Part shown: piece after piece, positions 4,271-63,387 of the stretch
Numbering within the stretch: the first letter of the stretch is position 1
How the letters are laid out: each line of letters opens with the position of its first letter
From: Oscillospiraceae bacterium
GTDB taxonomy: Bacteria; Bacillota; Clostridia; Oscillospirales; Oscillospiraceae
Direction: 5' to 3'
NCBI GenBank assembly: GCA_009777235.1
Contig: WRMH01000007.1
Coordinates: 1 to 64,000 of the forward strand
Length of the DNA stretch: 64,000 nucleotides
The notes under the pieces: model-generated
Database searches by the model: none
Told to the model about the DNA's origin: nothing
What the model saw: only the letters and a program-made list of their open reading frames with translations
Program-made: the position numbers and the translations under genes

Positions 4271-4379
4271 AAAAAGGTCATAAAACCATTCCTCCCCGAT
4301 CAATTGCGTCATCCCTGCGCAAACGATCGGACGCTCCGCGTCCATGCTCCGCTCTCGGAATGATTTTTATGACCTTTTT
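4271..4379. repeat. 100-bp palindromic element (family P), copy A
   Basis: The core 4276-4374 begins GGTCATAAAACCATTCC and ends GGAATGATTTTTATGACC, an inverted terminal repeat of about 17 bp. The interior contains CTCCCCGAT, GCGCAAACGATCGGACGCTCC and GCTCTCGG blocks. Flanking A5 and T6-7 extend the palindrome. Other copies are at 11179-11278, 32047-32146, 55968-56066 and 63128-63225. The rest of the 4077-4482 gap contains the terminator at 4406-4427 and nothing else I can identify. Confidence 0.8.
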
Positions 4380-4405
4380 TTACAATCATCACGCACACCA
4401 AACGG

Positions 4406-4427
4406 GAGGCTGCCTTGCGGCAGCCTC
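4406..4427. terminator. hairpin after surface protein 1
   Basis: GAGGCTGCC-TTGC-GGCAGCCTC is a perfect 9-bp stem located just past the stop of the minus-strand surface gene. An identical hairpin follows the second surface gene at 11593-11614. The T-rich tract is stronger on the plus-strand side here, so it may act in both directions. Confidence 0.6.
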
Positions 4428-4482
4428 GTTGATTTATTTTGCATATATTTATTTCCTTTCCTCTTTTTAATATCCCTTTCCT

Positions 4483-7400
4483 TTATTTGCTAAGTCCTTT
4501 TTCTTTGCGGCGGATAATTATAACCGCTGCTTCGAGGGCGAGGATCGCGGCGTGTGCAATCGTCCAAACATCCGTCATAATGATTTGGCCGTTCATGTCT
4601 TGGGTCAGCCAGAAGAGGATCACACTGGCAGCGGAGAGGATTATCGCGCTCAGCAGGTTTGCCTTTTTTCCTTTTTTTCCGCGCTTGCCGATGAGGGCTT
4701 GAAGAGCGACGATTGAGACAAGCAGCACTCCCAGCAAAGAGAGGATCAGGTTCGCGATTGCCAGAGTTCCCGTTCCTGTGCCGAATCTCGCGCCTATGTT
4801 GGCAAGCGGTGTTGACTGTCTGTTTGCGCCCGCGTATTCGTCGTCGTCAGCGTCGCCGACAAAACCGTCATCAGACAAGGGTCTCTCGGGGGTGGGTTCG
4901 GGTGTCCGCTCCGGGGTCGCTTCAGGCGTCGGTTCCGGGGTCGGCTCTGGTGTCGGTGCGGGGGTTGTTCCCTGTGTGCCCGCTGTGGTATCTTCTGTGC
5001 CCGGCTGTGCGGTCATCTGTGAGCCATTGCCGTCATCTGCTTCTGTCGCAAAGCTATCCATGTCGTCTTGACTTTGACCTTGATCATCATTGTCTACCGT
5101 GTTTTTGCCGTCGTCGTCGCCTTTGTCTTTGTCCCCGTCGCCGCCATCGGCGGCGGTATTATCGGCGGCGGTGCTGTTGTCGGGGTTGCAATCATCACAG
5201 TCACAATCGTCATCATGCTCATCGGCGTCGGGGTTGCAGTCATCGCAGTCACAATCATCGTCATGCTCATCGGCGACGATGCAGTCGTCACAGTCACAAT
5301 CGTCATCATGCGCACCGTCGCCTACGGCGCCGGGGTTGCAGTCATCACAGTCACAATCGTCGTCATGCTCATCGGCGTCGGGGTTGCAATCATCGCAGTC
5401 GCATCCGTCGTCATGCTCATCACCGTCGTCCTTGTCCTCTATAATATCGGCTGTGCCGTTTTCATCGGTTGCCCAAACAGCGTAGACATTCTCGTCTTTG
5501 TTTGTTATGGTGACATTTTCCAGCAGATTTACGGTGACAGAGGAATCTTTCGTCAAAAGGGGCAGCGGCTCGGCCGACCATCCGGCAAAGATAACGTCTA
5601 TTCCGTTTATCGGTGTGTGGGTCGCTTTTTTGCCGCTCACCGTGATCGTGGTATCTGTCAACAGTCCTACGGCGGGGGCGGGGATGTTTTCCACGTCGCC
5701 GCCCTGTGCGTTGGCATGGTAGGTCAGGGTGTATTGGTGCTCGCCATAGTCCGGCTCGCCGTTTTTGTTCATGTCGAAAGCCCAGATAGCATAGACGTTT
5801 TTGCTTTCATTCGTTATCACAATTTCTTCCAGCGGCTTCGGGGCTTTTGAGCCAACCGCTAAAATGGTGAGCGGGCTTTCCGACCAGTCGACAAAGATGA
5901 CGTCCGCTCCGCCTATCGGCGTATGGGTCAATTGCGCGGAGCTTAGCGTTATCGCGGTATCTTTCATCAGTCCGCCGACGGGAGTCGGGAGTCCGTATAC
6001 GTCGCCGCCCTGCTGTGCGTTTGCGAAGTAGGTCAGCGTGTATTTTGATTCTTGATAGTCCGGGATTCCGTCGCCATCGGTGTCTATCGCCCAGAGCGCA
6101 TAGACTGTCTCGTTTTTGTCCGTTATAGAAATCTCTTTGTGAAGAGCTTCCTCTACGGTGGCAGAGGCAGCGTCTTTATCAAAAGGTGAGTGCGCGGTGG
6201 CAGACCAGCCGACGAGAACCGTGCCGCTCCGCTCCGGCTTATGGCCTTCCGCCAACTCGGCCAGTATGTATGTACCGGGGAGCAGTCCGTCTACCGCTTT
6301 GTCCGGGCTGCCGCCGTTGGCGTCGAAGGTCACGGTGAATCTTTCGATCAAGCTGTCGGGGTCTGCCCAGTTTGCGGTGGCTGTCGCCTCGCCGGCGGGC
6401 ATTACGAACATTATGCTCTTGCCGCCCGGGAAAGTATACAGCGGGGCTATCTCTTCACTGCCTGCATCTGTCGTCACTGTCCAATGCGTGAAGATATATT
6501 TCTCCGGGTGTGTGCCCGCTTTGACGGTGACGTTTTCTCCGGCCAGGTAGTTTCCGGCGCCGCTCTCGCTGTCGTCCAAGTAGGAATCTTTCACTGTTAC
6601 CGGGTATTTCGCCATCGCGCCTTCACCCGGCAGATTCCAGAGGACGGTCACTGTCATGTTGTCTGTTACTTGTTCATTGTAAGACCACCAGCTTTGCTTG
6701 ATGTCCTGCTCGCGAGACGTTCCATTTTCGGGGACGATCTGCCAGCCTGTCGCCTCGGCGCCGACTATGCGGGAGGGGGGACCAAAGAAGCTGTTATTAT
6801 ATCTGTCGTCTATTTCGAATACTTCTCTCGCGCTAATCGAGCTCATATATGGTGTACCAAAATACTCATGGTCTTTGAAATTGGGGAACGCCGACCAGTT
6901 TGGGAAACCGGAGTAGTTGTTGATGCTGCCCAGACTCGTTCCTTCCTGCACGCCGGTCACGGTAAATGGCGCGAAGTCCCCAAAGCGACCCGGCATTACT
7001 GTGACGCTGTAGGTGGGTACCCAAATTGCTTTAACTGTGATGTCTTCCTCTGTCATGGTGTAGTAAGCATTTTCGGAGGTGTTCCAAGTGTATTCATATC
7101 CCTCTTCGTAAATCCTTACCCAATGTGAGAATACATAGCCGTCTGTGTGTGTTCCGGCCTTTACGTTTACCGTCTCGCCTTCCTTGAACTGACCCACGAA
7201 TTTGCGCTCAGGGGCAAACGCGTCGTCTACCCAATCGGTATGGTATGAATCCAGAACCGTCAGCGCGAAGGTTTCGTTGGGGTTATAGCTGCTGACGTCG
7301 GCTTTAAGTGCGTCGTCCGCCAGATATAGGTCGAAGCGCAAGCCTGATTCGGGAACTTTTATGCTGTCAGGGAAAAGATTGTTGGCCCATGCGCTGGTAT

Positions 7401-10400
7401 TGCTGTTGTAGGCACTGCTAATCAATATAATGGTGTCTCCGTCGTTCAGTCCGCTCATATCTCCGGTCAGGGTGAAAGGAAGTACCGCGCCGGAGTTGCG
7501 GACGAAGTCAATCCCCCGGCCATTGTTGCTCGCCCCGCCGTTGAGCGAATGATTTAGCGTCAGGACGGTGTCGCCGTCCGTGATGTCGCTCAGGTCGAAT
7601 TCGTAGCCCCCGAAGTTTGTGGCTATGTATCCGTAGGTAGGCCAGGCATCGGTCTCTGTGCCGCGAACCGGGGCGGTGATGATGTCCATTGTATAGTGTT
7701 TGCGCGATATAAGTTTCATGTATTGGAGCGTGATTCTGCCGCCGTTGGTGACGCTGCCTTTTGTCTTTTGGGGCTGGAGATTCATGAGGACGATTTCTTT
7801 CGCGTCGAGGGCTCCGCCGTAACCTTCGAGCGTGACCTGTCCGGCGCCGCCGTTGGAATTGGAGTATATGCCGGTATCTGCTCCCCAAAAGTTTTTGCCC
7901 GTTCCGTCATTGCCGAGCCTACCCATGCCGCCGGCCTCACCGGCAACCATGTAAAGGGAATCAAGTTTCAAGGTTTGGCTGCCAAAATTGACGCTGGCAT
8001 CTCCGCCCCTGCCGCCGGAGCCGCCATTTGTGTTGTCGCCGGAGCCGCCCGGAGAACCGTTTGATCCCTTTTGCGTGCTCCTATTCGAGAGAACGGAGGG
8101 GAAAGAACCGCCACTGGCTGACACCGTCAGGTCCGGGTTGTTCGCCAGGATATGGTTAAAGCCCGAGCCGAAGCCGCCGTCGCGGCCGGTGCCGCTTTGA
8201 AGGTATTCGGCGGGATTCGGATGTTGGTCGCAAGCGACTCCGTCCGCACCGGGATTGCCAAACTGGCAGTAGCCGTTGTTCGCGCAACCATTCCAAAGGA
8301 AGTACATCTCAATATACGCGCTGCTGATGGCATCTGCATCGTCCGCCTCTGTGAAGCCTCTGAAACCGCCCGCGCCGCCTGCCATATTATTGATGCTCGC
8401 GCCGCCGTCGCCGCCTTTGGCCGAGTCGGGCACGAGTCCGAAGCCGCCGCCGCCCGCGCCGCCGCCGCCGGTGATGAATCCGTCGCCGCCGCGTCCGCCG
8501 CTCATAGGCATGGACGGGGTCTGCACGCGTCCCGCGCCGCCGACGCCCGCGCCGCCGTATTGCCACGCCACTATAGCATTGTTTTCCTGATATTCGATGT
8601 AGCCGCCGCCACCGCCGCCGCCGCCGCCGGGTCCTGCGCTGTAGAAGTGATCAAGCGGAGAAACTTTATCGTCAGACAGGCCGGAGCCGCCGCCGGAGCC
8701 GCCTGTGCCGCCGCCTATGATCAGCAGGTTTTTGCCCGCGCCCATGTTAAAAGGATCAACAGGGGAGAATTTCTGCACTTCTTTCTGCCAGGCTTGCTGC
8801 ACTGTCGTTGTGGCTGTCATGCCTCCACTGACAGGTCCGATTCCCACGGCGTTTATCGCCTCGGCAAAGAATGTGTAGGCCGTGTCGGGCTCAAGGCCGG
8901 AGACTGTGTAGTTTGTCACTCCGGAAGCCACGCCGTTTACTTGTGTCGGGATGGGGGTGTTATAGGCAGGATATGCAATATACTCTATGATATGTCCCGG
9001 TTCCACATATGTCTTGACGCCGCTTTCATCTGTGTAGCTGAGCCGGTAGCCGAGTACGGGCATGTCTCCGTCAAAGTATGGTTTTTCCCATGAGAAGCTG
9101 ACCGAGTCCGCTGTCACGGCGCCCGTGCCTATAGTCCTGGCATAGGGGGCGTCCGGTACGGAAATCAGCGCCCATCTTTCGGCATCTCCGTCATAAATCA
9201 TCCGGGTGTTTGGGCTGTTGTCGGGTACAAATAGGCGGGAATACTCGGGATTATTAACTGTTCCCGCGCCGAATACATAACTGTCTTCGTCAATCCTGTT
9301 GCTAAGGGTGTATGAGATGATTTCTTTCGTAACGCCATACGCGCCGGTCAACGGATTGCCCGTCGGGCTGGATGCGCCGTTTGTTCCGTCGCCGATGGTG
9401 ATGGTTGCAGACTTTCTGCTCGTTGTGTTGCTTTCCAAAACGATATTGCGGGGATTTCCTGAGGTATAGTTACCCTGAATTGTCCCGCTGCCGCCGATGA
9501 TGAAAGAACCGACAAAGCCGGACCCGGCGCCGACTGTGACGCCGCTGCCATTGTTGCCGCTGATTTGACCGCCGCTCATGACAAACTCGCCGCCAACATA
9601 AACGCCTCCGTTTTTAGCGGCGGGATTGTTGATGATTTTGCCGCCGGTCATGTTAAACTTCGCGTCGGAAGGCTTTATCGCATTTGTGCCGTTGCCTGTA
9701 AAAATCGTCCTGACAAAAACGCTGCCGCTTTCTATTACATTTGCAGAAGAGTAACCGCCGGAACTTGAGTAGTTTCCGCTGATTACAGCATTTCCGCTCA
9801 TATTAAACTCGGAAGACGTGATGTTGTTAGTTTGGTAGCCGCCTTGATTCATTACCGCCACGGCATAACCCGCCGCCGCACCGTTGCCGCTGATAACTGC
9901 GTCGCCGCTCATGTTGAAAGTGGAGCCAAGAACCAAAACCGCGCCGCCGTAAGGTACGTTCTTAAAATAGTTGTCATAGCCTGAATAAGCATAATCATTC
10001 GGAAACTCGAGAGGAATCGCCACGTTATTTATTATCGCGCCGCCTGTCATATTGAAAACTGCCTCTCCTACATAGCCAACTATCATATTTTGTTTTATTA
10101 CCTTCACTCCGCCGCCCGGACCGTTATAATCCGCAGCGCGGGTGAGTGTAATGCCTGATCCCATGGTGAACGTGTTCACGCCTGATGGTCCGGATAAAAC
10201 CGCAAAGTGGCGATATGGGCCGTTTACCGTCAACGTGACGCCGACCGACGATGTGAGCGTATCTCCACTTGTGGGATAGATGGTATATGTGAGCAAAATC
10301 GTCGTAGGTCCGTTTCCCTCCTCGGCTGCCGCAATCGCCGTTTTTAATTCCGCGTAAGTTTCAACAGATGCAAAGTCGGCTTCTTCACATTCGCAATCCG

Positions 10401-10866
10401 CCTGAGGCTCACCGCAGTCCGCGCAAATATCACATTCGCAGTCCGCTTCAATCTCGCCGCAATCTGCGCAAAACTCAAACGACGATGGCGCGAACAGCAT
10501 AAAGCCGTTTTCGTCCGCGCCGCCATCGGCGGCGGTGCACTCACATTCGTCTTCGCGTTCGCCGCAGTCCGAGCAAATGTCAGGTTGCGCTATCGGGTCA
10601 ACGCCTCCTGCGGAGGCGCAGTCGCAGTCGTCTTCAAGCTCGCCGCAGTCTGCGCAAATATCCGCCTGCGCTATCGGCTCAACGCCTCCTGCGGAGGCGC
10701 AGACGCAGATGTCTTCAAGCTCGCCGCATACGTCGCATGGTTCGCCGCCCCCGCTGGGGGCGGTGGAGTCTGCAATCGTGACTGTGAACGAGCTCATCAT
10801 TACAATTGCCAGTATTATTGCCATAATTCTTTTTAGTGCGTTTACTTTCTTTGTTGTCCTTTTCAT
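4483..10866 (-). CDS. large secreted surface protein 1: beta-helix, FN3, Gly-rich, InlB repeats, Cys/Asp-rich repeats
   Basis: A 2127-residue protein with a signal peptide (MKRTTKKVNALKRIMAII, then a hydrophobic stretch to about residue 33). In order: five Cys-rich units of the form CxxCGE(x)4CxC (about 40-165); a right-handed beta-helix region built on FNMTGGxI repeats (about 200-520); a fibronectin type III domain (about 580-690); a very Gly-rich segment (about 700-1000); InlB/Listeria-Bacteroides-like repeats (about 1170-1790); five DDCDCDDC units separated by acidic linkers (about 1810-1890); a Pro-Thr-Glu stalk; STPLANIG; and a C-terminal block with several membrane spans. It is probably anchored through those spans rather than by sortase, since no LPxTG is seen. 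A role in adhesion or metal binding is inference. It shares both ends with the 11720-16252 gene. Confidence 0.85.
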   Translation of the reverse strand: MKRTTKKVNALKRIMAIILAIVMMSSFTVTIADSTAPSGGGEPCDVCGELEDICVCASAGGVEPIAQADICADCGELEDDCDCASAGGVDPIAQPDICSDCGEREDECECTAADGGADENGFMLFAPSSFEFCADCGEIEADCECDICADCGEPQADCECEEADFASVETYAELKTAIAAAEEGNGPTTILLTYTIYPTSGDTLTSSVGVTLTVNGPYRHFAVLSGPSGVNTFTMGSGITLTRAADYNGPGGGVKVIKQNMIVGYVGEAVFNMTGGAIINNVAIPLEFPNDYAYSGYDNYFKNVPYGGAVLVLGSTFNMSGDAVISGNGAAAGYAVAVMNQGGYQTNNITSSEFNMSGNAVISGNYSSSGGYSSANVIESGSVFVRTIFTGNGTNAIKPSDAKFNMTGGKIINNPAAKNGGVYVGGEFVMSGGQISGNNGSGVTVGAGSGFVGSFIIGGSGTIQGNYTSGNPRNIVLESNTTSRKSATITIGDGTNGASSPTGNPLTGAYGVTKEIISYTLSNRIDEDSYVFGAGTVNNPEYSRLFVPDNSPNTRMIYDGDAERWALISVPDAPYARTIGTGAVTADSVSFSWEKPYFDGDMPVLGYRLSYTDESGVKTYVEPGHIIEYIAYPAYNTPIPTQVNGVASGVTNYTVSGLEPDTAYTFFAEAINAVGIGPVSGGMTATTTVQQAWQKEVQKFSPVDPFNMGAGKNLLIIGGGTGGSGGGSGLSDDKVSPLDHFYSAGPGGGGGGGGGYIEYQENNAIVAWQYGGAGVGGAGRVQTPSMPMSGGRGGDGFITGGGGAGGGGFGLVPDSAKGGDGGASINNMAGGAGGFRGFTEADDADAISSAYIEMYFLWNGCANNGYCQFGNPGADGVACDQHPNPAEYLQSGTGRDGGFGSGFNHILANNPDLTVSASGGSFPSVLSNRSTQKGSNGSPGGSGDNTNGGSGGRGGDASVNFGSQTLKLDSLYMVAGEAGGMGRLGNDGTGKNFWGADTGIYSNSNGGAGQVTLEGYGGALDAKEIVLMNLQPQKTKGSVTNGGRITLQYMKLISRKHYTMDIITAPVRGTETDAWPTYGYIATNFGGYEFDLSDITDGDTVLTLNHSLNGGASNNGRGIDFVRNSGAVLPFTLTGDMSGLNDGDTIILISSAYNSNTSAWANNLFPDSIKVPESGLRFDLYLADDALKADVSSYNPNETFALTVLDSYHTDWVDDAFAPERKFVGQFKEGETVNVKAGTHTDGYVFSHWVRIYEEGYEYTWNTSENAYYTMTEEDITVKAIWVPTYSVTVMPGRFGDFAPFTVTGVQEGTSLGSINNYSGFPNWSAFPNFKDHEYFGTPYMSSISAREVFEIDDRYNNSFFGPPSRIVGAEATGWQIVPENGTSREQDIKQSWWSYNEQVTDNMTVTVLWNLPGEGAMAKYPVTVKDSYLDDSESGAGNYLAGENVTVKAGTHPEKYIFTHWTVTTDAGSEEIAPLYTFPGGKSIMFVMPAGEATATANWADPDSLIERFTVTFDANGGSPDKAVDGLLPGTYILAELAEGHKPERSGTVLVGWSATAHSPFDKDAASATVEEALHKEISITDKNETVYALWAIDTDGDGIPDYQESKYTLTYFANAQQGGDVYGLPTPVGGLMKDTAITLSSAQLTHTPIGGADVIFVDWSESPLTILAVGSKAPKPLEEIVITNESKNVYAIWAFDMNKNGEPDYGEHQYTLTYHANAQGGDVENIPAPAVGLLTDTTITVSGKKATHTPINGIDVIFAGWSAEPLPLLTKDSSVTVNLLENVTITNKDENVYAVWATDENGTADIIEDKDDGDEHDDGCDCDDCNPDADEHDDDCDCDDCNPGAVGDGAHDDDCDCDDCIVADEHDDDCDCDDCNPDADEHDDDCDCDDCNPDNSTAADNTAADGGDGDKDKGDDDGKNTVDNDDQGQSQDDMDSFATEADDGNGSQMTAQPGTEDTTAGTQGTTPAPTPEPTPEPTPEATPERTPEPTPERPLSDDGFVGDADDDEYAGANRQSTPLANIGARFGTGTGTLAIANLILSLLGVLLVSIVALQALIGKRGKKGKKANLLSAIILSAASVILFWLTQDMNGQIIMTDVWTIAHAAILALEAAVIIIRRKEKGLSK
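5187..5440 (-). repeat. tandem coding repeats for DDCDCDDC units
   Basis: About five imperfect units of roughly 50 bp within surface protein 1 encode HDDDCDCDDCNPDADE-like peptides. At DNA level they share the block TCATCACAGTCACAATCGTC with small variations, and could expand or contract by slippage without a frameshift when units are multiples of three. Confidence 0.75.
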
Positions 10867-10929
10867 TTTTTTGCTCTCCCTTTATTTTTATTGGTTTTTT
10901 ATTTGTTTTGCGGCTTTGTTTGCCGTCTG

Positions 10930-10958
10930 ATGATACTGTAGCACATCTCTTTTCAAAA
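10930..10958 (-). promoter_or_regulatory. candidate promoter of surface protein 1
   Basis: On the minus strand TTTTGA (10953-10958), 17 bases and TATCAT (10930-10935) lie about 65 bases upstream of the start codon. The block 10922-10994 is nearly identical to 16308-16381 upstream of surface protein 2, so both genes probably share one regulatory input. Confidence 0.4.
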
Positions 10959-10968
10959 TGTGTGAAAG

Positions 10969-10984
10969 TTGGCAGAATTGCCAA
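10969..10984. promoter_or_regulatory. inverted repeat TTGGCA-N4-TGCCAA upstream of surface protein 1
   Basis: A perfect 6-bp dyad with a 4-base spacer lies just upstream of the candidate -35. The same sequence occurs at 16355-16370 in front of surface protein 2. This is the expected form of a dimeric regulator site; the regulator is unknown. Confidence 0.45.
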
Positions 10985-11062
10985 ACATTTTTTTTAGGGA
11001 GTTTGCGATAAGGGCGGTTTTTTGCGTTTTTTATGAGAGAAACGCAGCATTTGCAGTCGTTT

Positions 11063-11097
11063 GAGGAACTCTTTAATTTTAAAAGAGTTCCTCTTTT
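11063..11097 (+). terminator. orphan Rho-independent-type terminator
   Basis: GAGGAACTCTT and AAGAGTTCCTC form a perfect 11-bp stem with a short AT loop, followed on the plus strand by CTTTTG. There is no plus-strand gene before it, so it may end an unrecognised short transcript or be a relic. Confidence 0.4.
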
Positions 11098-11178
11098 GAA
11101 TTGCCGTAAAAAACGAGTTTTGAGGGGGCGGTTGGCGGTTTGGGGATGCGCTGTGGGGAGGTTTGATATATAAGGGGC

Positions 11179-11278
11179 GGTCATAAAAATTATTCCGAGA
11201 GCGGAGCATGGATGCGGAGCGTCCGAACCGTCTGCGCATGGATGACGCAGTGGTTCGGGGAGGAATGATTTTATGACC
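11179..11278. repeat. 100-bp palindromic element (family P), copy B
   Basis: The same element as at 4276-4374, in the opposite orientation: GGTCATAAAAATTATTCC at the left end, GGAATGATTTTATGACC at the right, with the internal GAGCGGAGCATGGATGCGGAG and GGTTCGGGGAG blocks. The flanking bases are again complementary (AAGGGGC on the left against GCCGCTT on the right, one mismatch). Confidence 0.8.
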
Positions 11279-11314
11279 GCCGCTTTGACGATGCCAAAGA
11301 GATGCAGGGATTAT

Positions 11315-11565
11315 ATATCCAAAGTATACGCTGTGGGGCGCTTCAGACCTACGTAAAAAGTGACTGTATGGCTCATAGCGGGGTCTTCGCAAACTCGCAG
11401 AGCGAATTTCATTCTCCACCCCGAACTTCGTTCGCAAAGCGACCTTTAGTCGCTGTGTCAATGAAATTCGCTCTGCTCAAACAGTGCTCGACCTTGTCCG
11501 CTATTTCGCCTACAGTCTCTAATTTACTCCGCTACGAAGCTCCCCGCAGCGTATACTTTGGATAT
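11315..11565. repeat. 251-bp element with 24-bp terminal inverted repeats
   Basis: ATATCCAAAGTATACGCTGT (then GGGG) at 11315-11338 is inverted at 11542-11565 with one mismatch in 24. Inside is a second palindrome: AGAGCGAATTTCATT (about 11400) against AATGAAATTCGCTCT (about 11460). No coding capacity is evident. The shape is that of a miniature inverted-repeat element. Together with copy B and the terminators it fills the 10867-11719 gap. Confidence 0.6.
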
Positions 11566-11592
11566 TTGGCAAATACTCATCACACAAAAAGG

Positions 11593-11614
11593 GAGGCTGC
11601 CTTGCGGCAGCCTC
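11593..11614. terminator. terminator after surface protein 2
   Basis: GAGGCTGCC-TTGC-GGCAGCCTC followed on the minus strand by CCTTTTTG gives a good Rho-independent terminator for the 11720-16252 gene. Hairpin and surroundings duplicate the site at 4406-4427. Confidence 0.75.
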
Positions 11615-11719
11615 GTTGATTTATTTATCATATATTTCTTTCCTTTCTTATTTTTCTATTTTCCTCTTTTTCATATTTTTTGATTATATTTCTTTGACGC
11701 TTCTACTGCCTTTTTTATC

Positions 11720-14700
11720 TTAATTTTCTTCCCCCTTTGTTATTTCGACTATTTCTTCTTCTTCCTCTTCTTCGTCGCGGCGTTTCCATACGACAAACAG
11801 GAAGAGCAGTGCGAGAAGTACAAGCAGTGCAGCCATGTTTGCCATTGCGAGGAGTGACATTGAGCTAAGTCCGTTGTTGTTTGCTTGTCTCTCTCCTATA
11901 TTGGCAAGCGGTGTGTCAGAATTGTTCGCGCTTAAGTATTCGTCGCCGCCGCCGACAAAACCGTCATCAGGCTGAGGTCTTTCCGGGGTGGGTTCGGGTG
12001 TCCGCTCCGGTGTCGGTTCAGGGGTCGGTTCTGGCGTCGGCTCTGTGCTCGGCTCGGATGTTGTTCCTGTGCCCGCTGTGGCCGCTTCTGTACCCGGCTG
12101 GGCGGTCGTCTGTGAGCCGTTGCCGTCCTCTGCGTCTGTCACTAAGCTGTCGCCGTCGTCTTGACTTTGAGCTTTATTTTGGTCTTGACCGTCGCTGTTT
12201 GCCGCGTCGTTTCCATTGTTTTTACCGTCGTCATTGCTGTTGTCTTTGTTGACTTCGCCGTTGTTTCCATTGTTGCTGTCATTGTTTTTGCTGTCATCGG
12301 CGGCTTCGCAATCATCGCAGTCGCAGTCACAATCTCCGGCGCAGTCAGCATCACAGTCACAATCTTTGCAGTCACAATCTCCGGCGCAGTCAGCGTCACA
12401 GTCACAATCTTTGCAGTCGTCGCAGTCGCAATCGTCTTCGCAAGGCGGGTTGCAGTCGTCGCAATCGCAGTCATCAGCATGTTTGCAATCGTCACAGTCG
12501 CAGTCGGCCGCATGCTGTACGGGGGCTACTGTCGTAGCGTTGCTGATGTATGAGTTATTGCTCGGGCCGACTTCGTTGACCGCACGGTATTGCACCTTGT
12601 ACTGCACTCCGTCTTCAAGCCCATCTATTACATAGGTTTGCACTATGCCGTTTCCTGTCGCGAGAAGCTCTGCGGGAATATCATATGTTATCCAGTCTCC
12701 GTATGCGCCGTCGGCGCGGCTGTATCTAATTTGAAATCCCGTTGTCACTCCGCCTCGAATATCAATGTTGGGGGAATATGTTTTAAGCTCGAGTGTGATT
12801 TCTCTGTATCCGCCGGTGACTGTGCCTCTGTTCGTATTTGGAATACCATACGCCCATGCGGTTTTCATTTCCGACGGCTCGCTAAATCCTGCCGCGTTGA
12901 CCGCCCGCACCTGATAGTCGGTGGAAATCGCTGTAAGGAATGTCGCGCTTGTGCTATCCACGTCGCTGTATGACAGCGCGTCGCCGACGTCATACCAAGA
13001 ACCCCAATTTGCGCTGTCGCTTGCCTTTTGTCTAATCTGATAATGCGTGATCGCGCTGCCGCCATCGTTTTCGGGGGCTTCCCAAGTTAATTCTGCCCGT
13101 TTCGGTCCGATTGCCGCCATGAAGTTTTGCGGCGCGGTGGGGGCTGTTTTCGCGTCGCCATCGGCGGCGATGCAGTCGTCGCAATCGCAATCATTTGCGT
13201 GCGGTAACTCTTCCCAACGGGCGTAGAGGGTCGTATCTTCCGTGAGGCTCAGTTTCGCGCCGGGGGCAAAGTCCGTGCCGCTGCCGTCGGCTTTTGTATT
13301 CCAAGCGGCGAACTCATAATCTTCGGGGGCGGTGAAGCTGCTGTCCGCCAAAGTCGCGGAGCTTAGTACCGTGACGCTGTAGGCCGTGCCGCTGCCGCCG
13401 TTCGGGTCGTAGCTCAGGTCGCGGAAGTCATCGACCGTCACATTAATTGTATACTGTTCCGTGCCTTGGAATGTCACTATGAAGCTGTATGTGCCGTTTT
13501 CGCTGACTGTCATCCGCGCTGTGGACCAGTTCGTGCCGACAGGAGCAAGATAGACATTCGTCAAGGCGGGCATACCGGGAGCGGCGGTGATGGCTCCGAC
13601 GTTCAGTCCGAGGTTGATTCTGGTTTTCAGCTCTATCGTCACTGTACCCGTAGCCGCGCTTTGCACTTTTTCGATTTCATAGAGCGGGCGGGGGTCGTCC
13701 ATGAAGTAGACGGGCGTCCCGGCGGGTGCTCCCCAGGGCATATTATTTATGATGGAGGCCACGGCTTTTCTATAATCGGTGTCGCCGGCTTTGGTGCGGT
13801 ACTGGTGGATGGTGATCACGTCGATGTCGGGATTGTTTGCAAAGACATTGTTTGTCATGCTGGTCACGGCGCCGGGGATGATGATTTCACCGCTCAGGGC
13901 GCCATTTCTAAACGCCTGCGTACCGATAGTGGTGAGTCCGGCGGGCAAGGTCAGTGAGGTGAAGCGACCGCCGTGAAATGCGGTGTCTCCAATTTTTGTG
14001 ATTGCGGAACCTAAGTTCAGCTCGCCGATGGCGACGTTATAGAAAGCTCTTGCATTGATGGCTGTTATCCCGTCCGATATGGTCAGGCTGCGCAGCTCGC
14101 TGTTTGTCGGCACGACGTTTGCGCCGCTTACGCTGCTCACACCGACAGTCGTGATGGGGTAGCTTATTCCCTCGTGGCTGAGGGAGGCGGGGACGACGAG
14201 GTCGATGTCCGCCCCGGTGCTGCCCACGTATGTCATGATGGTAGCGTTCAACGTATTAAATGTCCACTCTCCGCTCTCGTCGGTGACGACGGCGGGGGTG
14301 TCCGTGATATCCTGCCAATGGATATTGGCGGCGGTCGCGCCCCAGGGGCGGCCGCTAATGCTGTCTTTTTCTTTTCCCAGCAGATAGATGTCCGTGACAC
14401 CCACAGGGAAGGGAGGCGACGAAACGCTGATGTCGATGCTGCTTATGACGCTGCCCGCAAAGGTGACGGTCCTTAGGGTGCTTATGCCGGCAAAGGCATT
14501 GCTTGAGACGGTATGCACCCCGGCCGGAATTGTCACCGCCGCCAATCTGGTGTTTTGAAAGACCGCTCCTCCGATACTGGTCAGGCTCTCCGACAAAGTC
14601 ACGTCGGTCAGTGCCGTGCAACCGTAAAATGCGAAATTTCCGACAGAGGTGACGCCCTCCGGCAGGATGATCTCCTTTAGTCGGATGTTGCCACGGAATG

Positions 14701-16252
14701 CTTCGCTGGCGATGCTCTCCAGGCTCTCGGGCAAGGCGATGGCATTAAAACGAGTATTATAAAAGGCCCTGATGCCGATGGAGGTCAGACCCTCGGGCAA
14801 GGTAATACTCGTGAGGTTGGTGTTGTCGCGGAAAGTGTCCGCCGCGATCGCGGTGATCTTGCTGTCCGGCGCAAATGTGACGCTGCGGATGGCCGTCTTG
14901 GCGTTGAAAGCCCCATTGGCGAAGCCTTTCACCTCCACGCCGTCGATCTCGGCGGGGATTACGATATTGCCGTCTCCCGTATAGGCAGGGCTGAGGCCGA
15001 GGATCAGGCCGCTCGCGGCGTCAAAGATGAAATCGCCGGCGCTGGCGCCGTCTTTCCAAAGGATGCTGACGGTACTTGGCGCGCCCCAAGGGGAGCCGGC
15101 GACGCCATACATGTCGTGGTCGCCGAGGTCGATGGCGCCGCCCGCCTTGATACCGGAAAATGCGTTGCTGCTGATCGTGGTGACGGAGGCGGGGATTTTG
15201 ATATAGTCGAGGGCGCTGCAGGCACTAAAGGCACTGCCGCCAATCGTCAGCAACCCGTCGGGCAGGGCGACAGAGGTCAGGGCGCTGCAGCCGTAGAACA
15301 TACTGCCCTGGAGGGTCGTGAGCTTCGTTTGGGACAGGTCGGCGGATTCGAGCCCCCGACAACTATAGAAGGCTTGGGTGCCCAGGCTAGTGAGGCCGGA
15401 CGGCAAGGTGATGGTCCGAAGCTCCCGGCAAGCATAAAAGGCGCTGCTGCCGATGCTGCTGAGGCCGGATGGCAGATCAATGGAGGCAAGCTCCAGGCAA
15501 CCATAGAAAGCGTTGTTGCCTATGCTGGTTAGGCCGGACGGCAAAGTGATGGAGCGAAGCTCCCGGCAACCATAGAAAGTATCAGCGGCGATGTCGGTAA
15601 TGCCGGAGGGCAAAGTGATTTCCGTGATGTTGGTCTCCCTAAAGGCGGCATTCGAGATCGTCGTCAGCGTGTCCGGGAGATTGGTGATGGCGGTGATGGG
15701 GTTGTTGCGGAAAGCACTGTTGCCGATAGTCTTGATCTGGCTGCCGTCTTCGAAGCTGACACTGGTCAGCCCCATGCCCGTGAATACATTAGCGTTTATG
15801 CTGCTGATGGTGATGCCATTCACTTGGACGGGGATAAGGATGTCGCTGGGGGCGCCGGCGGGGGGATGGTAGCCGGTGATGACGCCGGAGGCGTTCACGA
15901 TTAGGTAGTCGGCGATGTCGAAATAGGTGGGCTCAACGCTTGTGGGGTCGCAGTCGGAGCAGACGTCGTTTACGAGGGCGACACCGCAGATGGGGCAGTT
16001 TTCCGCTTGTGTTGTCAGGTCGCAGTCGCCGTCGCAGTCAAACTCGCCGCAATCGGCGCAGATGTCCACTTGCGCTATCGGCTCAACGCCTCCTGCGTCC
16101 TCGCAGATACAGGAGTCTTCAAGCTCGCCGCAAAGGTCACAGGGGTCGCTATAGTCCGCAAGCGTGACTGTGAACGAGCTCATCATTACCACTGCCAGTA
16201 TTATTGCCATGATTCTTTTTAGTGTGTTTGCTTTCTTTGTTGTCCTTTTCAT
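11720..16252 (-). CDS. large secreted surface protein 2: BspA-type leucine-rich repeats, FN3, Cys/Asp-rich repeats
   Basis: A 1510-residue protein whose signal peptide (MKRTTKKANTLKRIMAIILA) is nearly that of surface protein 1. It continues with N-terminal CxxCGE units (about 38-100), then a long run of BspA/TpLRR leucine-rich repeats (LRR_5; about 110-860) of about 23 residues with the pattern ITLPSGLTSIGNNAFYGC. Next come an InlB-like repeat (about 945-1015, ending LYARWEE), two fibronectin type III domains (about 1030-1230), a dense Cys/Asp segment (DCDCDDC, CDADCAGDCDC; about 1235-1325), a Pro-Thr-Glu stalk, DTPLANIG and one membrane span with a basic then acidic tail. BspA-type repeats often mediate binding to host or microbial surfaces; that role is inference. 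There is no LPxTG. Confidence 0.87.
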   Translation of the reverse strand: MKRTTKKANTLKRIMAIILAVVMMSSFTVTLADYSDPCDLCGELEDSCICEDAGGVEPIAQVDICADCGEFDCDGDCDLTTQAENCPICGVALVNDVCSDCDPTSVEPTYFDIADYLIVNASGVITGYHPPAGAPSDILIPVQVNGITISSINANVFTGMGLTSVSFEDGSQIKTIGNSAFRNNPITAITNLPDTLTTISNAAFRETNITEITLPSGITDIAADTFYGCRELRSITLPSGLTSIGNNAFYGCLELASIDLPSGLSSIGSSAFYACRELRTITLPSGLTSLGTQAFYSCRGLESADLSQTKLTTLQGSMFYGCSALTSVALPDGLLTIGGSAFSACSALDYIKIPASVTTISSNAFSGIKAGGAIDLGDHDMYGVAGSPWGAPSTVSILWKDGASAGDFIFDAASGLILGLSPAYTGDGNIVIPAEIDGVEVKGFANGAFNAKTAIRSVTFAPDSKITAIAADTFRDNTNLTSITLPEGLTSIGIRAFYNTRFNAIALPESLESIASEAFRGNIRLKEIILPEGVTSVGNFAFYGCTALTDVTLSESLTSIGGAVFQNTRLAAVTIPAGVHTVSSNAFAGISTLRTVTFAGSVISSIDISVSSPPFPVGVTDIYLLGKEKDSISGRPWGATAANIHWQDITDTPAVVTDESGEWTFNTLNATIMTYVGSTGADIDLVVPASLSHEGISYPITTVGVSSVSGANVVPTNSELRSLTISDGITAINARAFYNVAIGELNLGSAITKIGDTAFHGGRFTSLTLPAGLTTIGTQAFRNGALSGEIIIPGAVTSMTNNVFANNPDIDVITIHQYRTKAGDTDYRKAVASIINNMPWGAPAGTPVYFMDDPRPLYEIEKVQSAATGTVTIELKTRINLGLNVGAITAAPGMPALTNVYLAPVGTNWSTARMTVSENGTYSFIVTFQGTEQYTINVTVDDFRDLSYDPNGGSGTAYSVTVLSSATLADSSFTAPEDYEFAAWNTKADGSGTDFAPGAKLSLTEDTTLYARWEELPHANDCDCDDCIAADGDAKTAPTAPQNFMAAIGPKRAELTWEAPENDGGSAITHYQIRQKASDSANWGSWYDVGDALSYSDVDSTSATFLTAISTDYQVRAVNAAGFSEPSEMKTAWAYGIPNTNRGTVTGGYREITLELKTYSPNIDIRGGVTTGFQIRYSRADGAYGDWITYDIPAELLATGNGIVQTYVIDGLEDGVQYKVQYRAVNEVGPSNNSYISNATTVAPVQHAADCDCDDCKHADDCDCDDCNPPCEDDCDCDDCKDCDCDADCAGDCDCKDCDCDADCAGDCDCDCDDCEAADDSKNNDSNNGNNGEVNKDNSNDDGKNNGNDAANSDGQDQNKAQSQDDGDSLVTDAEDGNGSQTTAQPGTEAATAGTGTTSEPSTEPTPEPTPEPTPERTPEPTPERPQPDDGFVGGGDEYLSANNSDTPLANIGERQANNNGLSSMSLLAMANMAALLVLLALLFLFVVWKRRDEEEEEEEIVEITKGEEN

Positions 16253-16315
16253 TTTTTTGTTCTCCCTTTATTTTTATTGTTTTTTATTTGTTTTTGCGGC
16301 TTTATTTGCCGTCTG

Positions 16316-16344
16316 ACGATACTGTAGCACATCTCTTTTCAAAA
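16316..16344 (-). promoter_or_regulatory. candidate promoter of surface protein 2
   Basis: On the minus strand TTTTGA (16339-16344), a 17-base spacer and TATCGT (16316-16321). The -10 differs by one base from the paralogous promoter at 10930-10958. Confidence 0.38.
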
Positions 16345-16354
16345 TGTGTGAAAG

Positions 16355-16395
16355 TTGGCAGAATTGCCAAACATTTTTTTTTGCCAAAATTGGCG
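16355..16395. promoter_or_regulatory. TTGGCA-N4-TGCCAA dyad plus a second half-site dyad
   Basis: The dyad at 16355-16370 repeats the one upstream of surface protein 1. A further dyad TGCCAA-AA-TTGGCG lies at 16382-16395, present only here. Both lie between the surface protein 2 promoter and the divergent MNT/HEPN promoter. Confidence 0.4.
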
Positions 16396-16433
16396 GGCGG
16401 TTCAGAGGCGGGCGGGAATTTTGAAATTATTGC

Positions 16434-16462
16434 TTGTCAAATCAGCGCTTTTAAGGCATAAT
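16434..16462 (+). promoter_or_regulatory. promoter of the MNT/HEPN pair
   Basis: TTGTCA (16434-16439), 17 bases and CATAAT (16457-16462) lie 36 bases before the nucleotidyltransferase start. Confidence 0.5.
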
Positions 16463-16498
16463 GATATATATAAGATGTATCAAGGGGAGCGCTTGCCT

Positions 16499-16825
16499 AT
16501 GATGGAATATTTTCAAAACGAATTGAACACCATTGTAAAGACGATAGCAGACACGGGAATTGTATCTAAAATTATTCTGTTTGGCTCTATGGCTCGCGGT
16601 GAGATGACGCCCGACAGTGATATTGATTTGTGTGTTTTAACGTCAGTAAAAGACCGCAGACCTTTAGATATATCCATTGATTTGCGTCGTAAACTTTTCA
16701 ATGTGAAGAATGTTCCCCTTGATTTACTAACGTATAATCATGACAGGTTTGAAGAGCACGCCGCTTCACCGACTTCGTTTGCACATTTAATCAATACAGA
16801 GGGGGTCGTTGTTTATGAGCGATAG
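16499..16825 (+). CDS. MNT-type nucleotidyltransferase antitoxin
   Basis: A 108-residue minimal nucleotidyltransferase with the signature GSMARGEMTPDSDIDL (GSx(n)DxD), the active-site core of the pol-beta fold. In MNT/HEPN modules such proteins act as antitoxins, in characterised cases by transferring AMP onto the HEPN toxin. I chose ATG 16499 because AGGGGAG lies at 16483-16489; an adjacent ATG at 16502 and an upstream ATG at 16474 are possible. Its stop overlaps the start of the HEPN gene, so the pair is coupled. Confidence 0.85.
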   Translation: MMEYFQNELNTIVKTIADTGIVSKIILFGSMARGEMTPDSDIDLCVLTSVKDRRPLDISIDLRRKLFNVKNVPLDLLTYNHDRFEEHAASPTSFAHLINTEGVVVYER

Positions 16826-17216
16826 TTTGCAGATAACAAGGTGGGTTACGTTCGCGCAAAGAGATTATGACACAGCAATCAATATGTCTATATTGCACCA
16901 CCCTGTGCCGCTTGATATTGTTTGCTATTTATGTCAGCAAAGCGCGGAAAAAATATTGAAAGCATACTTAATCGCGCAAGGTGAGCCATTTAGAAAAACG
17001 CATGATTTAGAAACTATCCTTAAACTTTGTATAAAACACGATAACTGTTTTTCTGCGTTTGAGGATATCTGTCCTGTGTTGACTGAATATTCTACCGTGA
17101 CACGCTATCCTGCCGATGAGGATTTTATTACCGAACACGATATGAGAACTTCCCTTGAAAGCGCTCATGAGATTTTAGAATTTACAAAGGCGCGGATTGC
17201 TGATATAACGCCATAA
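16815..17216 (+). CDS. HEPN-domain protein, probable RNase toxin
   Basis: A 133-residue all-helical HEPN protein. The family features are CYLCQQSAEKILKAYLIAQ in the middle of the domain and FRKTHDLETIL shortly after, where Arg and His fit the usual RxxxxH-type active site in relaxed form. HEPN proteins of this group are commonly RNA-cleaving toxins held in check by a neighbouring MNT protein. The start ATG 16815 overlaps the MNT stop (TTTATGAGCGATAG); a TTG two codons earlier is less likely. The exact toxin mechanism is inference. Confidence 0.82.
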   Translation: MSDSLQITRWVTFAQRDYDTAINMSILHHPVPLDIVCYLCQQSAEKILKAYLIAQGEPFRKTHDLETILKLCIKHDNCFSAFEDICPVLTEYSTVTRYPADEDFITEHDMRTSLESAHEILEFTKARIADITP

Positions 17217-17483: not shown

Positions 17484-17741
17484 ATGATAACAACGGCTAA
17501 TCGGTGGGGGTCAAGCGGTATAGGGATACGCCTTGCAAAAAATATTTTAGACAAATTTCCTATTGAAGAAAAAACGCCGCTAAATGTCGAAGTAGACAAC
17601 GAAAATGACAGGATAATCATAACAAGGGTTAAGCAACCAAAAAAATACCCGACAATCGAAGAGCTTTTTGCCGACTTTCGGGGCGAATATGAGCCTGTAG
17701 ATGTTGACTGGGGCAGCCCGGTTGGGGGGGAAGTATGGTAA
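17484..17741 (+). CDS. mazE: MazE-like AbrB-fold antitoxin, module 2
   Basis: An 85-residue antitoxin with an N-terminal AbrB-type domain (ANRWGSSGIGIRLAKNIL, then LNVEVDNENDRIIITRV) and an acidic C-terminal tail ending VDWGSPVGGEVW. The ribosome site AAAAGGAG is well placed before ATG 17484. The tail shares the final tryptophan and overlap architecture of module 1, but the sequences differ enough to suggest different cognate toxins. It lies downstream of an operator-like dyad. Confidence 0.85.
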   Translation: MITTANRWGSSGIGIRLAKNILDKFPIEEKTPLNVEVDNENDRIIITRVKQPKKYPTIEELFADFRGEYEPVDVDWGSPVGGEVW

Positions 17742-18067
17742 AACAAGGTCAAATAATAAAACTCAGCTTTACTCCCAGTGTAGGGCACGAGCAAAGCGGA
17801 TATCGCCCCGCCGTGGTGGTAAGCAACAATTTTGGGTTGGCGCGTCATAATGTCGTCTACATTTGTCCGATAACCAACACAAGCAAACCATATCCCACAC
17901 ACATACCGCTTGACTCAAGAACAAAGACAACGGGCGTTGTTTTGTGCGAACACATGAAATCAGCCGATCTGTCTGTCAGAAATTTTACGTACGTTGAAGA
18001 TATGCCTCCTGATATTTTCGAAAAAGTGGTTTTTGCCGTGAGCAGCCTTATTCGATTGCCTGAATAG
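17735..18067 (+). CDS. mazF: MazF-like mRNA endoribonuclease toxin, module 2
   Basis: A 110-residue toxin starting VKQGQIIKLSFTPSVGHEQ and continuing GYRPAVVVSNN, the family's N-terminal signature. The core shows CPITNTSKPYPTHIPL and VVLCEHMKSADL; the latter contains the conserved strand near the active site. The ATG lies inside the end of mazE (GTATGGTAA), the same coupling as module 1. The proteins of the two modules are related but clearly diverged. Confidence 0.88.
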   Translation: MVKQGQIIKLSFTPSVGHEQSGYRPAVVVSNNFGLARHNVVYICPITNTSKPYPTHIPLDSRTKTTGVVLCEHMKSADLSVRNFTYVEDMPPDIFEKVVFAVSSLIRLPE

Positions 18068-22657: not shown

Positions 22658-22748
22658 GAGTTTTTCATGTGTTTTTGCTTGCTTTTTTGGTGTGAAAATA
22701 GTAAAATAGAAAAGTAAATATCTGGCTGTGAAAGGTTCGGTTTCTTCT

Positions 22749-24077
22749 ATGAATTCTGCCGCGGATATATGGGACAAAACACTTACTTTGATGCGCAAAG
22801 ATTTGACGGAGGTCGCTATCAAAACATGGTTTGAAGATTGCTCTGCGGTGGGCTTTTCCGCAAACCGTCTGTATCTGCACACATCCTCCGCCTATAACAA
22901 AGAAATTGTCGAGGAACGCTTTCTCGGCACTATCAAAAGCGCGCTCGGCGAGCTCTTTTCCTCATCAAATATAGACGTCGTCATATTGGACGACGTTGGG
23001 CTAAAAGCTATGAACGAATCTGCCGAAGACCCTGACAATCTTGGCATAAACGAATATACCTTTGAACATTTTGTCGTTGGCAGCTCTAATAAATTCGCGC
23101 ACGCCGCCGCGCTTGCCGTTGCGGACGGTCATCAAAAAAGAGGCTATAACCCCCTGTTCATATATGGGGATTCCGGACTGGGTAAAACGCATTTGCTCTA
23201 TGCCATCCGCTATGCTGTGGAAACAAAATTCCCGCACTATAACATTGTCTATGTCAAGGGCGAGGATTTTACAAATGACATGATTTTGGCGATACGGCAG
23301 GGCAAAAATGAAGAGTTTCGCGACAAATACCGCGGCGCCGACTTTTTTCTTATAGACGATATTCAGTTCATAGCGGGCAAAGAGGCTACCCAAGAAGAAT
23401 ACTTCAACACATTTGATTCGCTCTTTTTGCTCGGCAAACAAATTGTCCTCACATCAGATCGGCCGCCAAAAGATATGCTCTTGCTTGCGGACAGACTGCG
23501 ATCCCGTTTTGAGTCCGGTCTTTTGGTAGATATTCAGCCCCCCGACGATGCTCTGCGAATTGCCATAATCAAAAACAAGGCGGAGCAGCTTGGCGTCTTT
23601 TTGCCCGACGATGTTACAAACTATATTGCCGAAAACTTAGACAGAAGCGTCAGGCAATTAGAGGGCGCGGTCAAAATGGTTGTTGCGTACCGTGACATAA
23701 TGAATGACGACATTACGGTCGAGACAATAAAAGCGCGCTTGAAAGATGCCTTTATCGTGGGAGGAAACTTTATTCCTTCCGCCGACGATATTATCAACGA
23801 GACGGCAAAATACTACTCTCAAAGCGCGGAAGATATAAAAAGGCAAAGCAGAGCCGCCGAGCTTGTCTTGTCAAGGCAAATAGCAATGTACCTCATACGC
23901 AAAATGACAAATCTCTCTCTTCAAGATATTGGCACGATTTTTGACAAGCGCGACCATACAACCGTTCGCACATCCGTAATAAAAATAGATAATAAAATAA
24001 GAGAAGACAGCACTTTTTCAAACCTCATCAAAGACATTACCTCAAACATCAATTCCCGAAATATCGCCGCCCAGTAA
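22749..24077 (+). CDS. dnaA: chromosomal replication initiator DnaA
   Basis: DnaA binds origin boxes and melts oriC. From ATG 22749 the protein has 442 residues: the N-terminal helicase-interaction domain (ADIWDKTLTLMRKDLTEVAI), the AAA+ core with Walker A GDSGLGKT (about 140-147) and Walker B FFLIDDIQF (about 199-207), and a C-terminal helix-turn-helix with the DnaA signature DHTTVRTSVIKI. A GTG start at 22728 would add seven residues; neither start has a strong ribosome site. The gene is followed directly by an AT-rich origin and dnaN. Confidence 0.97.
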   Translation: MNSAADIWDKTLTLMRKDLTEVAIKTWFEDCSAVGFSANRLYLHTSSAYNKEIVEERFLGTIKSALGELFSSSNIDVVILDDVGLKAMNESAEDPDNLGINEYTFEHFVVGSSNKFAHAAALAVADGHQKRGYNPLFIYGDSGLGKTHLLYAIRYAVETKFPHYNIVYVKGEDFTNDMILAIRQGKNEEFRDKYRGADFFLIDDIQFIAGKEATQEEYFNTFDSLFLLGKQIVLTSDRPPKDMLLLADRLRSRFESGLLVDIQPPDDALRIAIIKNKAEQLGVFLPDDVTNYIAENLDRSVRQLEGAVKMVVAYRDIMNDDITVETIKARLKDAFIVGGNFIPSADDIINETAKYYSQSAEDIKRQSRAAELVLSRQIAMYLIRKMTNLSLQDIGTIFDKRDHTTVRTSVIKIDNKIREDSTFSNLIKDITSNINSRNIAAQ

Positions 24078-24390
24078 AAAAAAGCACTATACTTACAAAA
24101 TGGGAAAGCCATATCGTACAACAAACTGCCCTCCGGCTTCTTAGCTTTTTTAAATAGTTATTAACACTCTCTTGTTATCTTTTGTTAATTTTTGTGGATA
24201 ATTATATCCTTTTTACATATTTCTTTTTATACTCCCTATTTTTCCACATTTCTTTTTTATTATTATCTATGCAAAATATATTTGCCTGCAACGCTTTTTT
24301 GACCTCAAAAATACTTTTCCACATTTTTATCTACTACTATTACTGCTACTAAAAAATATTATTTATATAAATAAAGAAAGAGAAAAAAAT
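24078..24390. other. replication origin oriC between dnaA and dnaN
   Basis: A 313-bp AT-rich spacer. It holds a perfect DnaA box TTATCCACA on the minus strand (24193-24201), two TTTTCCACA boxes on the plus strand (24240-24248 and 24315-24323), and a run of CTA-CTA-CTA-TTA-CTG-CTA-CTA (24331-24351). The run is followed by AAAAAATATTATTTATATAA (24351-24370). The order DnaA box, DnaA-trio, AT-rich unwinding region is that described for the Bacillus subtilis basal unwinding system. Confidence 0.85.
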
Positions 24391-25506: not shown

Positions 25507-25577
25507 CAGCTTATGCGCAAAGAGGCTTGGCGGCGGGTAGTTACTTTTCCGGGCGCGGGAGTCTCAAAAGGAGTATC

Positions 25578-26681: not shown

Positions 26682-26714
26682 CGGAGCAATACCGGAAAGG
26701 GTTTCAATAAACTA

Positions 26715-28921
<2,207 letters not shown>

Positions 28922-32000: not shown

Positions 32001-32046
32001 AAGCACCCACAAGGCGCGGCTGGCTTTAACAAAAGCAGTTTACGGA

Positions 32047-32146
32047 GGTCATAAAATCATTCCTCCCCGATCAGTTGCGTCCATCCGTGCGCAAACGATC
32101 GGACGCTCCGCATCCATGCTCCGCTCTCGGAATAATTTTTATGACC
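32047..32146. repeat. 100-bp palindromic element (family P), copy C
   Basis: GGTCATAAAATCATTCC to GGAATAATTTTTATGACC with the standard interior. It lies between the convergent rnhA and EAL/HDOD genes, where a hairpin could serve as a two-way terminator. Flanks GA/TC are complementary. Confidence 0.8.
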
Positions 32147-55967: not shown

Positions 55968-56066
55968 GGTCATAAAATCATTCCTCCCCGATCAGCCCAG
56001 TCATCCGTGCGCAAACGATCGGACGCTCCGCGTCCATGCTCCGCTCTCGGAATGATTTTTATGACC
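55968..56066. repeat. 100-bp palindromic element (family P), copy D
   Basis: GGTCATAAAATCATTCC to GGAATGATTTTTATGACC with the standard interior. Flanks GCA and TGC are complementary, extending the palindrome by three bases. It lies alone in the 55825-56364 gap. Confidence 0.8.
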
Positions 56067-63091: not shown

Positions 63092-63387
63092 ACAAAATCA
63101 TAAGTCTCCCGCTTCTATTCCTTCGCTGTCATAAAATCATTCCTCCCCGAACCACTGCGTCATCCATGCGCAGACGGTTCGGACGCTCCGCATCCATGCT
63201 ACGCTCTCGGAATGGATTTTATGACCGCTTTGTTGTGAGTTACATTATAGCCGAAATCAGTGGTGAGTACAAGCTCCAACTGATTTTGTTAAAAACATCA
63301 CGCGCTTTGTGCGTGATGCAAACGCGTAGCGCTTGTGAGTCTTCGCCGAATTCATTTCGGCGAAGGCGATATATTAAATTGACTAAT
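63092..63387 (-). repeat. structured palindromic repeat, copy 2, interrupted by family P copy E
   Basis: The left part (ACAAAATCATAAGTCTCCCG) and the right part (from about 63234, TGTGAGTTACATTATAGCCG to TATATTAAATTGACTA) match 2685-2866. The hairpin CATCACGC/GCGTGATG here is changed on both arms relative to copy 1 while pairing is kept, which suggests selection for structure. The 98-bp family P element sits where copy 1 has the CCGCTT/AAGCGG hairpin. Confidence 0.6.
63128..63225. repeat. 100-bp palindromic element (family P), copy E
   Basis: GTCATAAAATCATTCC to GGAATGGATTTTATGAC, with interior GAACCACTGCGTCATCCATG and GCGCAGACGGTTCGG. It is inserted in the structured repeat, so it is the younger of the two. 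Confidence 0.8.

Follow-up and report, generated by a model that had tools for sequence, protein, structure and literature searches.

Two adjacent genes on the minus strand of an Oscillospiraceae draft genome encode putative surface proteins with closely similar ends and unlike middles. This arrangement raises the question of how two neighboring genes came to share their ends and whether parts of them have been exchanged. The genes, here called A and B, are located in the window, i.e., the whole stretch of 64,000 nucleotides from contig WRMH01000007.1 that was analyzed. An initial annotation had described them as a display cassette in which the exposed middle is exchanged and the ends are kept. 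Comparison of A and B revealed the following layout and shared blocks.

4483..10866, minus strand: gene A (2127 aa), with signal peptide, five CxxCGE units, FNMTGG repeats, fn3, Gly-rich stretch, InlB-type repeats, CDCDDC array, PEPT stalk, and FILTED tail, in this order
11720..16252, minus strand: gene B (1510 aa), with signal peptide, Cys units, BspA-type LRR, InlB-type repeat, two fn3, CDCDDC array, PEPT stalk, and a tail with one hydrophobic stretch, in this order
10617..10995, minus strand: shared 5' block of A, 85% identical to 16021-16381 (blastn, E 5.9e-125)
16021..16381, minus strand: shared 5' block of B, 85% identical to 10617-10995 (blastn)
4786..5130, minus strand: shared stalk of A, ending at TPLANIG, 78% identical to B (blastn, E 2.2e-73)
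11888..12223, minus strand: shared stalk of B, ending at TPLANIG, 78% identical to A (blastn)
4394..4468, minus strand: shared 3' block of A with the hairpin 4406-4427, 91% identical to B (blastn, E 1.6e-24)
11581..11655, minus strand: shared 3' block of B with the hairpin 11593-11614, 91% identical to A (blastn)

The 5' block of A contains the upstream region, the RBS-like sequence AGGGAGA, the signal peptide, and the first Cys units. The near-identical upstream blocks that had been annotated at 10922-10994 and 16308-16381 are correctly placed, but the homology is longer than noted and continues through the signal peptide. The two 3' hairpins are identical 22-mers, and the common stalk with its TPLANIG motif was recovered at 78% DNA identity (5130-4786 versus 12223-11888). 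The remaining eight DNA matches between A and B are short and, by their position, lie in Cys-coding repeats. Between the common ends, blastn found no DNA similarity, and the middles are made up of domains from different families, as had been annotated. The alignment of the two genes thus has sharp identity boundaries. The parts that differ, and those that border on them, are located as follows.

5422..10371 (approximate), minus strand: middle of A, unrelated to B in DNA
13199..15943 (approximate), minus strand: middle of B, with BspA-type LRR and InlB-type repeat (Pfam)
12521..13147, minus strand: two-fn3 module of B, near-identical to that of paralog C26 and absent from paralog C2b
5188..5403, minus strand: C-terminal CDCDDC array of A
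12308..12502, minus strand: C-terminal CDCDDC array of B
4498..4761, minus strand: FILTED anchor domain of A (NF052597, 43.0 bits, cut-off 40)
11723..11893, minus strand: tail of B (type I), with a single hydrophobic stretch and then KRRDEEEEEE

Pfam analysis of the B protein identified LRR_5 far above the cut-off (E 7.5e-112; 368.9 bits versus 27.7) together with an InlB-type repeat and fn3. In A, fn3 was detected (E 1.5e-14), the InlB-type repeats remained just below the cut-offs, and LRR_5 did not pass its cut-off; the Gly-rich and FNMTGG-type stretches were recognized from the sequence only. The beta-helix annotated in A was not confirmed. The BspA-type repeats assigned to B were. Contrary to the annotation, fn3 occurs in both proteins.

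Searches of the 2.63-Mb draft genome (58 contigs) placed A and B in a ten-member gene family with scattered loci. The N-terminal 79 residues of B matched ten genes, and the 129-bp upstream block matched ten genomic places at E <= 1.7e-51, the next match being at 0.045. The C-terminal end was found in nine genes at E <= 1.1e-41 (next match, 0.0018). Labeled by contig, the copies are C1, C2a and C2b (both on C2), A, B, and a contig-end copy (all on C7), C23, C26, C32, and C33. Complete reading frames are present in eight copies, each with its own upstream block. The C7-end copy runs on into contig C48 through an exact 127-bp end common to both contigs; C48 contains a gap of N. In the C23 copy, the signal-peptide frame stops right after a run of eight G (L023, 574-581), where it diverges from a long frame in another phase; this break may come either from phase switching or from faulty assembly. 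The two-gene observation is therefore confirmed and was understated: eight more genes of this genome have these ends around middles of varying kind, and none was found in the other species searched.

The restriction to one genome was seen with both ends. The N-terminal end of the family was found in none of 59 other genomes. The C-terminal end had matches at E <= 1e-3 in 12 of 118 other genomes; 18 of the 21 matches were examined, none had PLANIG/TPLANIG or CDCDDC, and nearly all were generic Pro-Thr or similar stalks, so they were rejected as family members. A scan of genome contigs with an eight-protein alignment gave no confirmed member, and viral contigs and plasmids yielded none, in collections from which records of or near this genome may be missing. 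Literature searches brought up nothing on the ten-gene family in the titles or abstract openings of the papers listed.

LRR middles of the general kind are widespread (35 of 60 genomes, this one included), with at most 53% identity outside this genome among the matches listed. The LRR genes of relatives were checked for shared ends in 20 regions from six relatives, covering long frames with LRR-like motifs. LRR genes of the relative G019 (L083 and L085) share similar signal peptides and C-terminal ends, which we take to be dockerin-like, and may be a parallel case. They were rejected as family members, since they do not have the A/B frame. A non-family LRR gene of the own genome was likewise without the family ends. 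GyrA encoded in the window is 87% identical, in its best segment, to that of the metagenome-assembled genome (MAG) Oscillospiraceae bacterium Emb289P3bin58; Emb289 is an Embiratermes neotenicus sample (PMC7024585). Judged by sequence, Oscillospiraceae MAGs from termite guts are relatives of the host.

Comparison of the ten upstream regions revealed 92 to 98% identity between pairs of copies in the 128 bp that precede the start codon (median, 95.3%). Over the next 81 bp, the median was 70% and the minimum 39%. In B and C2a, the upstream homology ends at an A-run adjoining a palindrome.

10969..10984: palindrome TTGGCA-N4-TGCCAA upstream of A
16355..16370: the same palindrome upstream of B, with the outer homology edge 11 bp beyond it
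11063..11093: long hairpin farther upstream of A

The palindrome TTGGCAATTCTGCCAA is present at all ten family genes (nine exact, one with one mismatch) and, allowing up to one mismatch, nowhere else in the genome. It was absent from 15 same-genus genomes and occurred, with one mismatch, in 1 of 24 other genomes overall. The upstream block is a putative promoter with an operator for co-regulation, for which the palindrome would be the candidate. A scan for sigma-70-like promoters gave no match in the upstream blocks of A or B, and at both sites the palindrome, together with the T-run after it, was rated terminator-like on the plus strand and could end an opposite-strand transcript. Because of these two results, an operator role is only a guess. 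Terminator-like sites were not enriched in the region (12 versus 17.1 in shuffles), and the 3' hairpin on the gene strand was called a terminator for B and not for A. In view of these scans, the promoter, operator, and terminator functions are given here as candidate roles. Long near-perfect hairpins similar to 11063-11093 are located upstream of five other copies and differ by paired changes.

The mature N-terminal end carries one to five CxxCG...CxC units per copy, as counted with the pattern applied. CxxCGE(x)4CxC units had been annotated in both proteins; A indeed has five, but B has just one exact unit, plus variants. The C-terminal Cys/Asp units described for both were found as the CDCDDC arrays given above, and arrays of this type are present in eight of the nine copies with a readable C-terminal end, C33 being the exception. 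In Pfam, no cut-off was passed by any of three Cys-rich end pieces; the Cys units may represent zinc- or disulfide-stabilized spacers. TPLANIG or a close variant of it (TPYANIG or IPLANIG) closes the stalk and is followed by one of two tails. The type I tail, with one hydrophobic stretch and then KRR and acidic residues, is present in B, C2a, C2b, C26, C1, C33, and C23. The FILTED tail scored above the NCBIfam cut-off of 40 in A (43.0 bits) and C32 (40.8 bits), and no match was obtained in the six remaining complete copies that were scanned (B, C26, C2b, C2a, C1, and C33). A pattern search detected no LPxTG-like motif in the C-terminal 250 residues of any of the eight copies with complete frames and no LPxTG in the long frame of C23.

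The genome contains five sortase-domain places over the cut-off. At one locus (L051 on contig C20), pilin-like genes are accompanied by two genes for sortases and one resembling signal peptidase genes, labels that are partly our assumption. Elsewhere in the window, a 4299-aa surface protein (34809-47708) has many InlB-type repeats, a FILTED tail over the cut-off, and a different N-terminal end. MazF-like genes and a nucleotidyltransferase-HEPN pair surround A and B (636-1058, 16355-17216, and 17735-18067). An origin-type gene order, dnaA, dnaN, recF, gyrB, and gyrA (recF and gyrA named from domains), is located nearby at 22728-31547.

Among the middles, LRR_5 (PF13306) was detected in three copies, B, C2b, and the C7-C48 copy; A, C2a, C26, C32, C1, and C33 had no Pfam match to it, the scan having covered the copies other than C23. 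The middles are putative binding parts for substrate, host, or partner cells. Like co-regulation through the palindrome and stabilization of the Cys units by zinc or disulfides, this is a proposal drawn from domain names and motif shapes.

Comparison of individual parts across the family gave evidence of exchange. Residues 1036 to 1244 of B, comprising the two fn3 domains, are 93 to 100% identical to those of C26, which is located on another contig, in seven 90-nt windows (at least 97% in six). Outside this module, the identity of the two genes is 38% at a point two windows before it and 53 to 79% in the windows after it. C2b is 76 to 88% identical to B just before the module and yet is without it; the corresponding region of the C7-C48 copy is unreadable. 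In the seven genes with a type I tail, the 5' and 3' trees reject each other, with AU p values of 0.016 for the 5' data, whose alignment has just 30 variable gap-free columns, and 1.5e-4 for the 3' data; without gapped columns, the values are 0.014 and 1.5e-6, respectively.

Synonymous differences also vary along the genes. In the signal peptides, the median is 0.11 and the maximum 0.28 (36 pairs of nine genes), although over these 33 codons constraint close to the translation start may account for part of the low value. The LRR middles differ by 0.50 to 0.53 (three pairs) and the FNMTGG-type middles by 0.48 to 0.60 (three pairs). For the type I tail, the median is 0.27; the two FILTED tails (A and C32) differ by 0.31, and the two-fn3 module of B and C26 differs by 0.062.

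The anchors show a further break. In pairs with unlike anchors, identity falls across TPLANIG from 72 to 38% (A/B), 69 to 32% (A/C1), 76 to 38% (C32/B), and 74 to 38% (C32/C1). Pairs with the same anchor show no such drop (69% before and 76% after for A/C32; 88% and 93% for B/C1). The 3' hairpin block shared by A and B resumes past their unlike anchors (blastn). These results support a swap of the anchor just after TPLANIG, so that the anchor is an exchanged part as well.

The shared fn3 module, the discordant trees, the low synonymous difference of the signal peptides relative to the middles, and the anchor swap together support exchange between paralogs in the history of the family. The comparison covered one genome per species, and no other carrier was found among the species searched; exchange may also be ongoing. 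The cassette reading of the initial annotation is thus supported as historical exchange, with the anchor as a further exchanged part. We consider it probable that A and B come from a dispersed family of ten genes for membrane-anchored surface proteins, all constructed on a single frame, whose middles were recombined between copies. The frame would consist of the common 128-bp upstream block with its palindrome, the common signal peptide, and the Cys-rich N-terminal units. On the C-terminal side, it would comprise, in most copies, a CDCDDC array, and in addition the Pro-Thr stalk ending in TPLANIG, one of the two membrane anchors, and the 3' hairpin. Likely binding domains (LRR, FNMTGG-type repeats, fn3, and InlB-type) would occupy the middle and would have been recombined between copies by homologous recombination or gene conversion.

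Plain duplication followed by divergence, in which selection for export and expression holds the ends and the middles change fast, would need no exchange at all. It would suit the plausible functions of the ends and the homology of the three LRR members along the middle (57 to 68% among the matches listed). Such a course would hardly leave a mosaic of sharp-edged modules, discordant 5' and 3' trees, middles from different domain families, and anchors swapped at one point, and we consider it unlikely. Another explanation involves a mobile element or site-specific system that spreads or reloads the genes, with a hairpin repeat of about 104 nt as its ends. This repeat has the inverted ends GGTCATAAAA...TTTTATGACC and 60 exact cores in the genome. 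It had no Rfam match at the gathering score in the sources scanned; at gathering scores, Rfam returned three tRNAs only. Its copies in the window are located as follows.

4271..4379: repeat copy just beyond the hairpin of A
11172..11285: repeat copy between A and B
32043..32146, 55968..56066, and 63125..63228: further repeat copies

The repeat is near family genes more often than expected by chance: 12 of the 60 exact cores lie within 600 bp, compared with 0.25 expected for a uniform distribution. Four genes (C1, C2b, A, and C23) are each flanked by two copies, one per side and always in inverted orientation. The enrichment is weaker if the repeats are limited to intergenic DNA (2.1 expected, with such DNA assumed to make up 12% of the genome), the distances to the genes vary from 33 to 517 bp, and 48 cores lie elsewhere. 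Scanning of 30 proteins near the loci, of which five had no Pfam match, yielded no recombinase or transposase; the scan covered the flanks of the copies other than C32 and the C7-end copy. The 5' homology ends are scattered from +72 to +209 in stringent alignments, which partly reflects the alignment settings. Scattered ends and the lack of a recombinase among these proteins speak for homologous recombination or gene conversion rather than for an enzyme acting at fixed sites, and we infer the former to be the likeliest mechanism. An element bounded by the repeats is improbable; the repeat itself may simply accompany the genes, supply additional homology, or drive their movement.

Antigenic or phase variation, with members switched on and off, would draw on the C23 signal-peptide frame ending just past its eight G, on the in-frame C runs of C2a (eight) and C1 (seven), and on the upstream block common to all ten genes. 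The C23 break could also come from assembly, and the other copies contain no G or C run of seven or more. The arrangement also differs from silent-cassette antigenic variation with one expression site and silent partial copies: the upstream block stands at 10 of 10 genes, and the eight complete copies, each with an intact frame and its own block, leave no silent archive. We consider this explanation unlikely. An artifact of assembly or binning is very improbable. The genome is a draft, the C23 and C26 copies begin less than 0.5 kb from a contig end, and the C7-end copy continues on C48 through their shared end, but other copies lie within long contigs with chromosomal neighbors (C1, 253 kb; C2, 209 kb; C7 with A and B, 97 kb), and the dnaA-to-gyrA group starts 6.5 kb from B.

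A more far-reaching form of the recombining family would be a species-private display platform. One regulator acting on the private palindrome would control the ten loci, and the DNA repeats encoding the Cys units and the stalk would also serve as recombination hinges. Through these, new binding domains would be loaded, with the reading frame kept, between export and anchor parts that stay fixed. Its odds are lowered by the missing promoter match in the block and the alternative terminator reading of the palindrome, and we offer it as a tentative idea, more doubtful than convincing.

The family resembles several known systems in part. BspA-type LRR surface proteins share the PF13306 repeat with B, C2b, and the C7-C48 copy, but the match is limited to the middle and the six other scanned copies are without LRR_5. 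FILTED domain surface proteins (NF052597) match the tails of A, C32, and the 4299-aa protein of the window, whereas the seven type I copies show another tail. Sortase-anchored LPxTG adhesins are likewise multidomain, stalked Gram-positive surface proteins, and sortase domains are encoded in this genome; the family tails, in contrast, have TPLANIG or a near form and then a membrane anchor in place of LPxTG. In Helicobacter bab/hop, Anaplasma msp2, and similar families, conserved ends are combined with recombining middles and exchange between paralogs. The present family is like these in its conserved ends, different middles, and paralog exchange, but its middles come from different domain families, each complete copy has its own upstream block, the ends are Cys-rich, and the palindrome is private. 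Paralogs with common ends and differing middles, and exchange between them in the past, were found here; the family is of the mosaic surface-gene kind already known, set apart by Cys-rich ends private to it and by middles that differ to an unusual degree. Most known examples of mosaic surface families come from pathogens. Ten copies with private ends in a bacterium whose closest named relatives are MAGs from termite guts would show that this mosaic surface trick also operates outside disease. The family would give a natural experiment on the rate of surface-domain turnover and would offer a ready frame for the display of different binding domains.
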